Shown here: piece after piece, positions 25,994-29,766 of the stretch
Layout of the letters: every line of letters starts with the position of its first letter
Numbering within the stretch: the stretch's first letter is position 1
NCBI GenBank assembly: GCA_017399625.1
Contig: JAFQBT010000027.1
Coordinates: 1-36,265, forward strand
Length of the DNA stretch: 36,265 nucleotides
Reading direction: 5' to 3'
Source: Oscillospiraceae bacterium
GTDB lineage: Bacteria > Bacillota > Clostridia > Oscillospirales > Ruminococcaceae
Position numbers and translations under genes: made by a program
The notes under the pieces: generated by a model
Seen by the model: the letters and a program-made list of their open reading frames with translations, nothing else
Databases searched by the model: none
Told to the model about the DNA's origin: nothing

Positions 25994-27169
25994 TCAGAAA
26001 TATCTTTTTGTCGCTCTTTCCGCAATGGTTCTGAATGCGGCTCTGGGATTTTCGGATTTTGCAAGAATGATCATTGCGGCAATTACATAGGGACGCATTC
26101 CCGCTTCCGCAAGAAGGCTGGAAAGGTTTGCGCCGTAAACCTGTGCGGTCATTTCGCCGCGGATGCAGGTGATATCGGTTACGTCTGCCGGAAGGTCATG
26201 GAGAAGAAGGGCTTTTCCGTCCTTTGTTTTCTCCATCATTTCCTCGGTTACTTCCCAGTCGATGAAAGCCTTGTTGTTTTCACGGAGCTCGTGCTCAAGA
26301 AGGTCGATATAGGTTCCGAGGTTTGCGGCATGGAGCTCGGTGCGTTTTTCAAGGAAGCTGAAAGGTGCCCAGTTGATGGGAACGATGATTTCGGCATCGG
26401 TCACCGCTTCCTCCATGGAGGAAACCTTTGCAAAGGTTCCGCCGGAAGCTTCGGCGTTCTTTTCCGCTCTTTCAATGGTGCCGGGCATGAGATCCATGCC
26501 TTCCGGTGCGGCAAGAACAACGTTCATTCCAAAACGGGTAACAAGAGAAACAAGTCCCTGGGGAACAGCAAGGGAACGGGTTCCGTTGGGGGAATATGCC
26601 CAGGTGACGGCGATTTTTTTGCCTTTGAGGTTTTCGATTCCGCCGAATTTTGCAGCCATATACTGAAGGTCCGCAATGGTCTGGACGGGGCTGTCCTCAT
26701 CGCTTCCGAGGTTAAGAACACAGGGTTTATCGGTGATGACTCCGTTGTTCTTGCTTTCCTCAACGGTATCGGCAACTCTTTTGATGTATCTGGAGCTTTT
26801 TTCGATAAAATCGCTTTCGCAGACGCCGAGGGTATCTGCCATATAGGAAGCCATTGCGGCGTTTTCGTTGATATTGCTGTTGCTGAGCTTTTTATCCATA
26901 TCGATGATGGTAAGACCAAGAAGGTCGCATCCGGCAGCATAGGCAAGCTTCATTCCGCTGTCCTCTTTGCTGAACATGGAAACAGCAACGCCGGAATCAA
27001 AAATTTTCGGGGAAACGTTGCTTTCGCGCATTGCTTTAAGAGCGCAGGCTCCTCTTGCAACGGAAATGATTTCTTCGTTGCTCATATCCCAGGTGCGGAG
27101 ATAATTTTTCCCGTAAAGGCTGTTTCCGGAATTTTCGGGAAGTTTGTTGATTGCGTCGCAATAATCCAT
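25994..27169 (-). CDS. YgeW-type carbamoyltransferase homologue lacking carbamoyl-phosphate motifs
   Basis: Length (391) and much of the sequence match the knotted carbamoyltransferase YgeW family: ENSGNSLYGKNYLRTWD, IFDSGVAVSMF, FGGIENLKGKKIAVTWAYSP, FGMNVVLAAPEGMDLMP and WEVTEEMMEKTKDGKAL. Yet where carbamoyltransferases have the carbamoyl-phosphate loop S-T-R-T-R, this protein reads D-S-G-M-K (residues 70-74), and the H-C-L-P motif is H-D-L-P (314-317). The histidine/glutamate box after DMDKK is also changed (SNSNINENAAMASYM). It may therefore be a pseudo-enzyme or act on another substrate. GGAGG precedes the ATG, and it has a good promoter divergent from the DUF1538-PII operon. Confidence 0.82.
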   Translation of the reverse strand: MDYCDAINKLPENSGNSLYGKNYLRTWDMSNEEIISVARGACALKAMRESNVSPKIFDSGVAVSMFSKEDSGMKLAYAAGCDLLGLTIIDMDKKLSNSNINENAAMASYMADTLGVCESDFIEKSSRYIKRVADTVEESKNNGVITDKPCVLNLGSDEDSPVQTIADLQYMAAKFGGIENLKGKKIAVTWAYSPNGTRSLAVPQGLVSLVTRFGMNVVLAAPEGMDLMPGTIERAEKNAEASGGTFAKVSSMEEAVTDAEIIVPINWAPFSFLEKRTELHAANLGTYIDLLEHELRENNKAFIDWEVTEEMMEKTKDGKALLLHDLPADVTDITCIRGEMTAQVYGANLSSLLAEAGMRPYVIAAMIILAKSENPRAAFRTIAERATKRYF

Positions 27170-27319: not shown

Positions 27320-27349
27320 TTGACACAAAACCATCACATAAGTTACAAT
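27320..27349 (+). promoter_or_regulatory. Promoter of the DUF1538-PII operon
   Basis: -35 TTGACA (27320-27325), 18 bases, -10 TACAAT (27344-27349). Upstream, at 27268-27295, two near-direct copies of TTTTGTG occur (TTTTGTGAATA, TTTTGTGTAAA), and the reverse form GACACAAAA overlaps the -35, a possible regulator array. Confidence 0.72.
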
Positions 27350-27389: not shown

Positions 27390-28985
27390 TTGATCCGTGA
27401 ACTCTTATCGAAATTCAAAGAAACGTCTGTGGCGGTTCTTCCCGTTGCGGGAATTGTTCTGCTGCTCCATTTCACAATTGCACCGATGCCCTCCGGCGTC
27501 CTGGCGCTTTTTTTATCCGGAACCTTTTTGCTGATAGTCGGCATGACCCTTTTCCAGCTTGGTTCGGAAGTGGGCATGACCCCTATCGGAAACCAGATTG
27601 GCGGAAAGCTTGTTGAGCTCAAAAATCTCAGGATTTTTCTCATCACCGCTTTTATCCTCGGCTTCCTCGTAACCATTGCGGAACCGGACCTTCAGGTTCT
27701 CGGAAAACAGATGCCGGACCAGACGATGTTCAGCCTTCTTGGTCTGGATGTTTCCGTCGGCCAGACCCTTATTTACATGGTCGCCATCGGCGTTGCGATT
27801 TTCCTCACCATTGCAGTAATCCGCGTTGTTTTCGGCTTTGATCTTTCAAAGCTGTTCTTTGTGCTGTATCTTATTGTTTTTGCTCTTGCATACTTTACAA
27901 AACCGGAATATCTTGCGGTTTCCTTCGATTCCGGCGGCGTTACAACCGGACCCATCACCGTTCCGTTCATTCTCGCTCTCGGCGTCGGCATTGCTTCCGT
28001 TAAAAATGGCAAGGATTCCGAAACCGACAGCTTCGGCTTCGTAGGTCTTTGTTCCGTAGGTCCCATCATTGCTGTTGCAATTATGGGCATGCTCGCAAAG
28101 GGCAGCGCTTCCTATGAATCCACCCCCATTCCGGAAATTGAAAATTTCGGCGACGCAATAATGGTCTATCTCCGGGCATTCCCCACCTTCTTCGAGGAAG
28201 TTGCCCTTGCTCTTTCGCCGATTATCGCCGTTTATCTTTTCTTCCAGGTTGTTTATCTCAAACTCCCGAAAATCTCCGTTGCAAAAACCCTTGTGGGCGT
28301 TCTCTATACATACATCGGTCTTGTAATCTTCCTCACCGCGGCAAATGTCGGTTTTATGCCTGCGGGAAGTTTTATGGGCGGTGCTCTTGCAACCCTTCCC
28401 TATAATTGGATAATAATCCCCATCGGCATGCTGGTCGGATTCTTCATTCTTCTTGCGGAACCCGCGGTTTATGTTCTCACCGTTCAGGTTGAGGAAGTCA
28501 CCGGCGGTTCCATAACAAGAAAAATGATGATGATTGCCCTTATGATCGGCATGAGTATTTCCGTCGGTATGGCAATGACCCGCGTCATCACCGGACTTTC
28601 CATCTGGTATCTTCTCATTCCGGGCTATGCAATCGCCCTCGGTCTTCTGTTCTTTGTTCCGGATGTATTCACCGCCATTGCATTTGACTCCGGCGGCGTT
28701 GCTTCCGGTCCCATGACCGCAACCTTCCTTCTCCCCTTTGCAATCGGTGCCTGCAGCGCGGTCGGCGGAAACGTTCTTATGGACGGGTTCGGCGTTGTTG
28801 CAATGGTCGCAATGACTCCCCTTGTTGCAATCCAGATTCTCGGTGCAATCTATGCAATCAAATCCAGAAAAGCAAAGGCCGAAGAATCCGAAGAACTTGC
28901 CGAAATCTATGAGGAGATCGAAGAGGAAATCGAAGAATATCAGCTCGACCTTACATGCGCAATCATCGAACTTGATTATGATTAA
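27390..28985 (+). CDS. DUF1538 two-fold membrane transporter-like protein
   Basis: A 531-residue polytopic membrane protein with an internal duplication. Each half carries the same signature: AVSFDSGGVTTGPITVPFIL in the first and AIAFDSGGVASGPMTATFLL in the second, each followed by GFG/DGFG and a conserved membrane segment. This is the DUF1538 family; substrate unknown. The C-terminus is a very acidic helix (EELAEIYEEIEEEIEEYQLD) that could contact soluble regulators. The start is a TTG at 27390 after AGAAGGG. The two PII-like genes that follow, one 15 bases later, make a transporter gated by PII-like sensors the natural model, by analogy with AmtB-GlnK and SbtA-SbtB. Confidence 0.88.
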   Translation: MIRELLSKFKETSVAVLPVAGIVLLLHFTIAPMPSGVLALFLSGTFLLIVGMTLFQLGSEVGMTPIGNQIGGKLVELKNLRIFLITAFILGFLVTIAEPDLQVLGKQMPDQTMFSLLGLDVSVGQTLIYMVAIGVAIFLTIAVIRVVFGFDLSKLFFVLYLIVFALAYFTKPEYLAVSFDSGGVTTGPITVPFILALGVGIASVKNGKDSETDSFGFVGLCSVGPIIAVAIMGMLAKGSASYESTPIPEIENFGDAIMVYLRAFPTFFEEVALALSPIIAVYLFFQVVYLKLPKISVAKTLVGVLYTYIGLVIFLTAANVGFMPAGSFMGGALATLPYNWIIIPIGMLVGFFILLAEPAVYVLTVQVEEVTGGSITRKMMMIALMIGMSISVGMAMTRVITGLSIWYLLIPGYAIALGLLFFVPDVFTAIAFDSGGVASGPMTATFLLPFAIGACSAVGGNVLMDGFGVVAMVAMTPLVAIQILGAIYAIKSRKAKAEESEELAEIYEEIEEEIEEYQLDLTCAIIELDYD

Positions 28986-29000
28986 AGGAGGTGTTCCGCT

Positions 29001-29375
29001 TTGGCACAGAACGAAAGAATAGATTCCGTATCGAGCAGCAGACGCCTTGATATGGTTATTGCCGTTGTTTCAAGAGGCGAAGGCGAAGAGGTTGTTGAAG
29101 TTCTCCGTGAAAACGGAATTTTCCAGAATCTCATCTGTCAGGGACACGGAACCGCGCCTTCGAGCATTCTTGAAATGCTCGGACTCGGCGCAACCGAAAA
29201 AGACGTTGTCATAAGCTTTTCCGCCCACGAAGACAGCAGAAAAACCCTTGAAATCATTTCCAGAAAAATTGAATTCGAAAAACCCGGCCGTGGAATCGCT
29301 TTTACTGTTCCGCTCGAAAGCATCGGCGGAATCATGGCCTTTAAATTTCTCACCGCTGAATTACCGGAGGATTGA
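29001..29375 (+). CDS. PII-like regulator 1
   Basis: A 124-residue PII-superfamily protein. The core follows the ferredoxin-like plan: LDMVIAVVSRGEGEEVVEVL, CQGHGTAPSSILEMLGLG as loop and helix, TEKDVVISF, then GRGIAFTVPLESIGGIM at the C-terminus. The classical PII T-loop tyrosine (Y51) and its usual context are absent, so uridylylation is not expected. The start is TTG at 29001, seven bases after AAAGGAGGTG. The stop overlaps the ribosome site of PII-like 2. In this family such pairs usually accompany DUF1538 proteins; ligand unknown. Confidence 0.86.
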   Translation: MAQNERIDSVSSSRRLDMVIAVVSRGEGEEVVEVLRENGIFQNLICQGHGTAPSSILEMLGLGATEKDVVISFSAHEDSRKTLEIISRKIEFEKPGRGIAFTVPLESIGGIMAFKFLTAELPED

Positions 29376-29377
29376 TC

Positions 29378-29722
29378 ATGGAAAACAAAAACGAATTTTC
29401 TCTTATAATCAGTATTGTTAACCGCGGCTATTCCGAAGAACTTATGGATGCCGCAAGAGATGCCGGCGCAAAAGGCGGCACAATCATGTATGCCCACGGC
29501 GCAGGACTCCGGGATGCGGAAAAATTCTTCGGAATCTCCATCCATCCCGAAAAGGAACTTGTTCTGATCCTCGCTTCCGAGGAAGCAAGACCCCATATCA
29601 TGCAGGCAATCGTAAAACGCGTCGGAATGGAATCCGAAGGCGCAGGAATCACCTTCTCCCTTCCTGTAACCGACGTTGAGGGCATTGCCCATCTCAACAA
29701 CCCTGCATCGAACGGAGAATAA
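29378..29722 (+). CDS. PII-like regulator 2
   Basis: A 114-residue paralogue of the preceding gene: FSLIISIVNRGYSEELMDAA, GGTIMYAHGAGLRDAEKFFG, HPEKELVLILASEEARPHIM and GAGITFSLPVTDVEGI. The two share the layout R-G...G-H-G...G...EK-(D/E)-V/L but are clearly diverged, suggesting a heteromeric or two-signal sensor. ATG 29378 follows GGAGG by seven bases; an in-frame TTG at 29372 is less likely. A terminator closes the operon at 29729-29766. Confidence 0.86.
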   Translation: MENKNEFSLIISIVNRGYSEELMDAARDAGAKGGTIMYAHGAGLRDAEKFFGISIHPEKELVLILASEEARPHIMQAIVKRVGMESEGAGITFSLPVTDVEGIAHLNNPASNGE

Positions 29723-29728
29723 AAACGA

Positions 29729-29766
29729 ACAAAAAATCCCGCTCCCATGAGCGGGATTTTTTTATA
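29729..29766 (+). terminator. Terminator of the DUF1538-PII operon
   Basis: Perfect ten-base stem AATCCCGCTC / GAGCGGGATT with a four-base loop and T run. Confidence 0.93.

Follow-up and report, generated by a model that had tools for sequence, protein, structure and literature searches.

DUF1538 membrane proteins are paired with PII-type proteins: a candidate PII-controlled cation/proton antiporter module in an Oscillospiraceae bacterium

Genes for membrane proteins of the DUF1538 family are almost always accompanied by genes of one PII subfamily, and the three-gene operon of an Oscillospiraceae bacterium described here is an instance of this pairing. The stretch of DNA analysed (contig JAFQBT010000027.1 of assembly GCA_017399625.1, 36,265 nucleotides, hereafter the window) encodes on its plus strand a fused UmpAB-like membrane protein with two DUF1538 halves and an acidic tail (27390-28985, TTG start, 531 residues, PF07556, purifying selection), followed by two PII-type proteins: the diverged PIIa in first position (29001-29375, TTG start, 124 residues) and PIIb in second position (29378-29722, ATG start, 114 residues, PF00543). 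We propose, with a probability of about 0.6, that the three genes form one module, in which a monovalent cation/proton antiporter of the fused UmpA-UmpB type would have its activity set by two dedicated PII proteins bound to its cytosolic face. The proposal combines the genes themselves, their homology, a near-obligate linkage and the existence of natural fusions with the antiport activity of one distant member of the family; from these we infer transport by the window protein, binding and gating by the PII proteins, the sign of the gating, the ligand and the function of the tail.

The linkage was surveyed in a sample of 398 genomes of the phylum, 139 of which contain DUF1538, the source genome included; the survey covered the other 138, using fetched loci for 93 of them (94 loci) and coordinates for 45. 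The PII subfamily adjoins DUF1538 in 134 of the 138 (90/93 and 44/45, respectively), the gap between the two matches being 23-628 bases in the genomes examined by coordinates. The initial annotation had presented the DUF1538 gene and its PII-like neighbours as a candidate gated-transporter unit, an idea to be given up if DUF1538 genes occurred mostly without such neighbours; the survey gives the reverse, an association far stronger than could be known from the window alone, and the gene linkage expected of PII-gated transporters. Among the fetched loci, 90 of 94 have the PII gene by rule, all but L041, L125, L149 and L152, and L149 was counted by eye. The four exceptional genomes are two contig ends (G401 and G410), G155, where DUF1538 is a remnant whose best match is broken by six stops and no PII match was found, and G316, to which we return below. 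In the first sets of loci, a PII-type gene lies directly behind DUF1538 and on the same strand in 163 of 169 loci by rule, a collection that favours strong matches and includes the same genomes from two collections as well as two copies of the window's own locus. Four of the six others are contig ends (L012, L041, L082 and L152), L149 has its PII in an overlapping long frame and L125 is without PII.

The same association appears when the search starts from the PII side. The PIIb of the window matches 139 of the 398 genomes at E ≤ 1e-6, and comparison of the two lists gives 137 genomes with both genes, two with DUF1538 only and two with PII only (G148, E 5.6e-9, and G463). In a set of 100 relatives, strong PII matches (at least 72 bits, a threshold set after the gap was seen) occur in 47 of the 48 genomes with DUF1538 and in none of the 52 others, whose best match reaches 42 bits; in G048, the one DUF1538 genome without a strong match, the locus ends at a contig edge. 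Among 72,556 plasmid records, the DUF1538 and PII queries match the same nine, which include two alphaproteobacterial genera: Methylocystis, with the order umpA-umpB-P-II, and Chelativorans, with the same order and a first DUF1538 gene annotated short. No other neighbour is common to more than three of the 15 loci compared.

The membrane protein matches PF07556 over two domains (27447-28094 and 28221-28847, plus strand) with E 2.2e-131 and 436 bits for a cut-off of 22.6, and DUF1538 is the only Pfam family found in it at E ≤ 1. The two halves are 29% identical to one another, and the duplication with two signatures reported in the initial annotation is exact: FDSGGVTTGPIT occupies residues 179-190 (27924-27959, plus strand) and includes Asp180, which is 97% conserved, and FDSGGVASGPMT occupies residues 432-443 (28683-28718, plus strand) and includes Asp433, present in 110 of 110 representatives. 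These representatives were obtained by reducing 146 at 80% identity, with the window added, after 17 loci (duplicates of the window's locus, contig ends, and copies that were broken or multiple) and seven with one DUF1538 open reading frame (ORF) above 100 bits had been left out. Glu98/357 of the E-P motif, Arg145/398 and Asp180/433 of the F-D-x-G-G motif are kept in 91-100% of them. UmpA and UmpB of Halomonas zhaodongensis, a DUF1538 pair characterised in 2017, give E. coli KNabc tolerance to salt and alkali together with pH-dependent Na+(Li+,K+)/H+ exchange; the residues shared by UmpA and UmpB homologues include two Asp, one Glu and three Arg (PMC5484666). The residues kept in both halves fit a shared ion mechanism without proving the substrate and, judged by homology, the window protein is a fused version of the UmpA-UmpB type. 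To call such a protein undescribed and its substrate unknown, as had been done at first, was too strong, since UmpAB is a characterised antiporter.

PIIb belongs to the P-II family by Pfam (PF00543, 32.9 bits for a cut-off of 25). PIIa gives no Pfam or NCBIfam match at E ≤ 1, PF00543 included, and is homologous to PIIb by a profile built in this analysis, the two being 25% identical over 108 positions; its match to TAL-effector repeats in a sequence search of the PDB was rejected as an artefact of summed short repeats. A profile of 22 single-domain members retrieves classical PII chains from the PDB (best 9p1x_H, E 2.1e-6; GlnK1 7p52, E 1.5e-4), with a matched stretch about five residues shorter than GlnK1 and one residue shorter than 9p1x_H. 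The model of a tandem PII relative from locus L081 (predicted local distance difference test, pLDDT, 77) adopts the PII fold, with PII 4usi as best Foldseek match (E 6.2e-5) and some non-PII chains among its 45 matches at E ≤ 0.001; the fold prediction is that of this tandem relative.

The subfamily conserves the core G-G-T, G-R-G-T, F-G-I, E-P-E-K-E and G-x-G-I-A-F, and in the profile alignment to GlnK1 7p52 PGDGKIF pairs with pgkGiaf and the C-loop RVRT with Givh. The conserved T-loop tyrosine, the GDGK loop and the C-loop arginines are missing from that alignment, which sets the subfamily apart from canonical GlnB and GlnK. PIIa contains no tyrosine, and the two tyrosines of PIIb, at positions 18 and 38, precede the T-loop region as we read the alignment, so that the early remark that neither protein has the uridylylation tyrosine context is borne out. 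The three lost elements are what we take to be the ATP-phosphate, 2-oxoglutarate and modification sites of PII proteins. With their loss, ATP/2-oxoglutarate sensing and uridylylation look unlikely for the window's PII proteins, and a ligand other than the canonical ones is likely. Because potassium transport in Gram-positive bacteria is under the control of cyclic di-AMP (c-di-AMP), this nucleotide was considered as a ligand, but neither PII protein of the window matches its PstA-type receptor family (PF06153) at E ≤ 1, and the value for a relative in locus L033 is non-significant (E 0.48). In the source genome, which is 86.9% complete, PIIb is the sole PF00543 match and no canonical GlnB or GlnK was found.

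The arrangement of the two partners varies. Among the 110 representatives, fused DUF1538 proteins accompany a tandem PII-PII protein (here a single PII ORF over 195 residues) in 66 cases, two PII genes in six, one in one (L028, in which the locus edge truncates the PII) and none in one (L125), and separate umpA-umpB genes accompany one PII in 17, two in six and a tandem in 13. Five loci outside this count, L116, L129, L143, L159 and L162, combine a single DUF1538 ORF with a single PII and may represent a minimal form that is homodimeric. A tree of 217 PII domains (307 before dereplication), rooted at its midpoint, places the window's PIIa in a group of 56 tips, of which 55 are from first positions (support 0.975), and contains a group of 45 tips made of second positions only (support 0.921); first-position domains form several groups, 52 of 107 lying outside that of PIIa. 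PIIa and PIIb fall into separate groups and thus represent separate lineages of constant order rather than the products of a recent duplication.

In three genomes, nature has joined the two partners in one protein. A PII domain follows DUF1538 at the C-terminus in G484 (L171:2638-4494, PII residues 506-599, independent E-value, iE, 8.6e-16), in G424 (L172:1922-3802, residues 509-600, iE 1.5e-17) and in a contig-end copy of G518 (L175:1785-3014, iE 5.3e-17). G484 and G424 belong to different orders and G518 to the genus of G484; two of the fusions come from the 138 genomes of the phylum sample and one from an order sample of 60. In L171 and L172 a tandem PII gene lies just upstream and, as the ORFs are called, overlaps the start of the fusion by four bases. 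These fusions argue strongly, if indirectly, for PII and transporter acting together in a complex, and they support a direct contact between the two. The two operons supply three PII domains per transporter, which equals the number of subunits in a PII trimer and is suggestive only.

The membrane protein ends in a tail (residues 497-531, 28878-28982, plus strand) in which 16 of 35 residues are acidic and none is basic, and whose conserved part is the terminal motif IIEL (28962-28973, plus strand). In the window's clade (45 representatives) the tail often ends in the order hydrophobic-hydrophobic-acidic-hydrophobic, as in DAIIEL, DIIEL or DEIVEF; a strict pattern, chosen after the alignment was seen, finds this motif in 26 of the 45, whereas it occurs in none of the 29 members of the sister fused clade. 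The terminal motif could be a docking peptide. The initial annotation had suggested that the acidic tail could dock the PII proteins, an idea that finds support in part: the tail itself is real and its terminal motif stands above chance only in the window's clade; the sister fused clade and the separate-gene systems pair with PII without the motif, which therefore is not a general contact.

In the model that we propose, UmpAB would exchange Na+ or K+ for H+ through the E-P, R and F-D-x-G-G residues of its two halves. PIIa and PIIb would form trimers or mixed a/b oligomers and sense a small ligand, probably a nucleotide, though not by way of the contacts used canonically for ATP/2-oxoglutarate. 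In one of the ligand states, a loop of PII would dock on the cytosolic side and slow or lock the exchanger, the terminal IIEL motif of the transporter serving as a tether in the window's clade, and a change of the ligand would free the exchanger. By analogy with known systems, the most likely role of PIIa and PIIb is to bind UmpAB and hold it back in one of the ligand states; the inhibitory sign is weakly hinted at by the activity that UmpAB showed in E. coli when its clone contained no PII gene.

Each of the known systems shares part of this design. UmpAB itself has two homologous DUF1538 halves with conserved Glu, Asp and Arg (PMC5484666); in the window the two are joined in a single protein that carries an acidic tail, two PII genes follow, and the scores lie below the equivalog cut-offs given below. 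AmtB and GlnK are likewise a genetically linked transporter and PII (PMC10710835), but the window's transporter is of another Pfam family and its two unlike PII proteins are without the T-loop tyrosine, the GDGK loop and the C-loop arginines. SbtA and SbtB unite a Na+-linked transporter and a dedicated PII-like protein in one operon, the T-loop of SbtB entering a cleft of SbtA, which is a trimer (PMC8352866); by Pfam, the window's transporter is of another membrane family, and the CGPxGC hairpin is not in the window's PII proteins. The methanogen proteins NifI1 and NifI2 are two unlike adjacent PII genes' products, both needed to control one target, but that target is nitrogenase, and its switch-off is reversed by 2-oxoglutarate, Mg and ATP (PMC9765008). 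Finally, the PG0541-family protein, transporter-associated by name (NF045581), has a weak profile similarity to PIIb (E 0.063), which at 13.3 bits remains far below the cut-off of 45.

Several observations weigh against the proposed module. G316 holds an intact DUF1538 gene and a tandem PII gene on different contigs, and G463 has a PII of the DUF1538-linked subfamily while no DUF1538 was found there. Pfam does not recognise the PII domains of the fusions at E ≤ 0.01; it is profiles constructed in this analysis that match them. The model of the membrane protein (pLDDT 80, 20 sequences) has no clear fold match among the solved structures of the PDB. UmpA and UmpB co-precipitate and are reported as a heterodimer (PMC5484666), and PII control appears restricted to transporters able to be trimers according to a 2023 review (PMC10710835). 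The antiport of Halomonas UmpAB in E. coli came from a clone without a P-II gene (PMC5484666), so that a cognate PII is not needed for activity there, with the caveat that E. coli encodes its own PII, as a control search confirms. Lastly, the membrane protein scores 168.4 and 137.1 bits against the NCBIfam UmpA and UmpB equivalogs NF041627 and NF041628, for cut-offs of 490 and 500.

With scores so far beneath these cut-offs the substrate could differ, and the PII proteins might gate a transporter of something else, the window's DUF1538 clade not being a Na+/K+ antiporter. We consider this unlikely, since the Glu, Arg and Asp of both halves are so widely kept and Asp, Glu and Arg are common to UmpA and UmpB homologues (PMC5484666), and since DUF1538 figures in the top-20 Pfam table of a model of optimal growth pH (PMC13255231); in its favour, UmpAB is the sole DUF1538 assay found in the literature searched, and the PII partners listed in the review carry ammonium, nitrate, urea and bicarbonate (PMC10710835). 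A lower probability still goes to PII proteins that sense nothing and are constitutive structural or assembly subunits of the transporter. UmpAB alone is active in E. coli (PMC5484666), the invariant PII glycines and the loop pattern are retained, and the separate, well-supported clades of PIIa and PIIb suggest two different jobs; a near-obligate pairing, the fusions and the loss of the canonical ligand residues are what such subunits would also produce. That the transporter is itself the sensor, holding the PII proteins at the membrane so that their release acts on another target, has a precedent in the sequestration of GlnK by AmtB (from a reference title in PMC10710835) and would suit a genome in which no canonical PII was found and PIIa and PIIb could have other roles, but is scarcely credible when no other partner recurs among the compared loci and fusion to the transporter leaves that PII domain no free form.

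Beyond the module of PII-controlled antiport itself, we advance a broader conjecture, which we hold as tentative. DUF1538 and PII would make up a widespread module in which a ligand controls the braking of monovalent cation/proton exchange. PII domains of different kinds would sit as one mixed ring on a transporter other than a simple trimer, the ring being made of two paralogues and, in some lineages, of a third PII domain supplied by the transporter itself. Such a system would be the first known to us in which PII proteins serve the homeostasis of Na+/K+ and pH, and its ligand would be something else than 2-oxoglutarate. If this holds, the role of PII signalling extends from nitrogen and carbon uptake, for which it is known, to the homeostasis of monovalent cations and of pH in a large share of the phylum (139 of the 398 sampled genomes carry DUF1538), the named relatives being mostly Oscillospiraceae and other Clostridia. 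Proteins labelled 'P-II family nitrogen regulator' would then have a concrete partner and a likely function, and one could examine whether a transporter has to be trimeric to come under PII control.

What is new here is the very widespread pairing of DUF1538 and PII, and neither a transporter family nor a sensor fold. Public annotation displays it, as 'DUF1538 domain-containing protein' beside 'P-II family nitrogen regulator', a label that is probably misleading for the DUF1538-linked proteins because the nitrogen-sensing residues are gone. The DUF1538 literature contains no mention of P-II, GlnB or GlnK where searched for these terms (PMC13255231 for P-II only), the main text of the UmpAB paper has no P-II term (PMC5484666), and one 'PII' string in PMC7221264 was discarded as part of a sequence string and not the mention of a protein. 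UmpAB is not mentioned in the consulted passages of the 2023 review (PMC10710835). The pairing was not found by title or abstract start among the articles listed on UmpAB, on PF07556 and on PII with antiporters, transporters or gene neighbourhoods, subscription journals and preprints being outside the scope of this search.

The source genome (2.10 Mb in 146 contigs) has Oscillospiraceae genomes from ruminant guts as its closest named relatives and contains one DUF1538 gene. The operon is as tight as first described, with 15 bases between the membrane protein gene and PIIa, two between PIIa and PIIb, and a hairpin behind. Shine-Dalgarno-like sequences, AAAGGAGG and GGAGG, precede PIIa and PIIb, respectively, and a TTG at 29372 is likewise open as a start for PIIb. 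The terminator-like hairpin (29731-29762) has a T-run on either side; its entry in the scan is for the minus strand, the plus strand being read from the sequence, and the scan finds nine terminator-like sites in the window for 5.1 in shuffles. A promoter-like site, TTGACA-18-TACAAT (27320-27349, plus strand), is a consensus match only, 11 of 12 positions, seven sites of such quality being found for 4.0 in shuffles. Compared with four relatives of the same genus, the membrane protein has a ratio of non-synonymous to synonymous substitution rates of about 0.06-0.12 and the PII proteins one of 0.14-0.38: all three genes are under purifying selection, the PII proteins less tightly than the transporter.

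A few minor observations complete this analysis. Divergent from the operon, the window encodes a YgeW-like knotted carbamoyltransferase (25994-27169, minus strand; TIGR03316, 425.8 bits for a cut-off of 500). In G316 (L176:3892-6397), the tandem PII gene is divergent from an ORF of 455 residues that has a hydrophobic start and no Pfam or NCBIfam match at E ≤ 0.01. In G463 (L177:4158-6092), the PII (110 bits to the b profile) precedes a permease of the ArsB/CitMHS type, for which the best NCBIfam match, MamN, is below its cut-off; this hints that the PII subfamily can serve another ion transporter, a single case proving nothing. Seven records of a phage collection encode DUF1538 relatives, namely MT835770, MT835548, MT837261, MT839021 and three Listeria phage records, and these may be bacterial contigs filed as phage.

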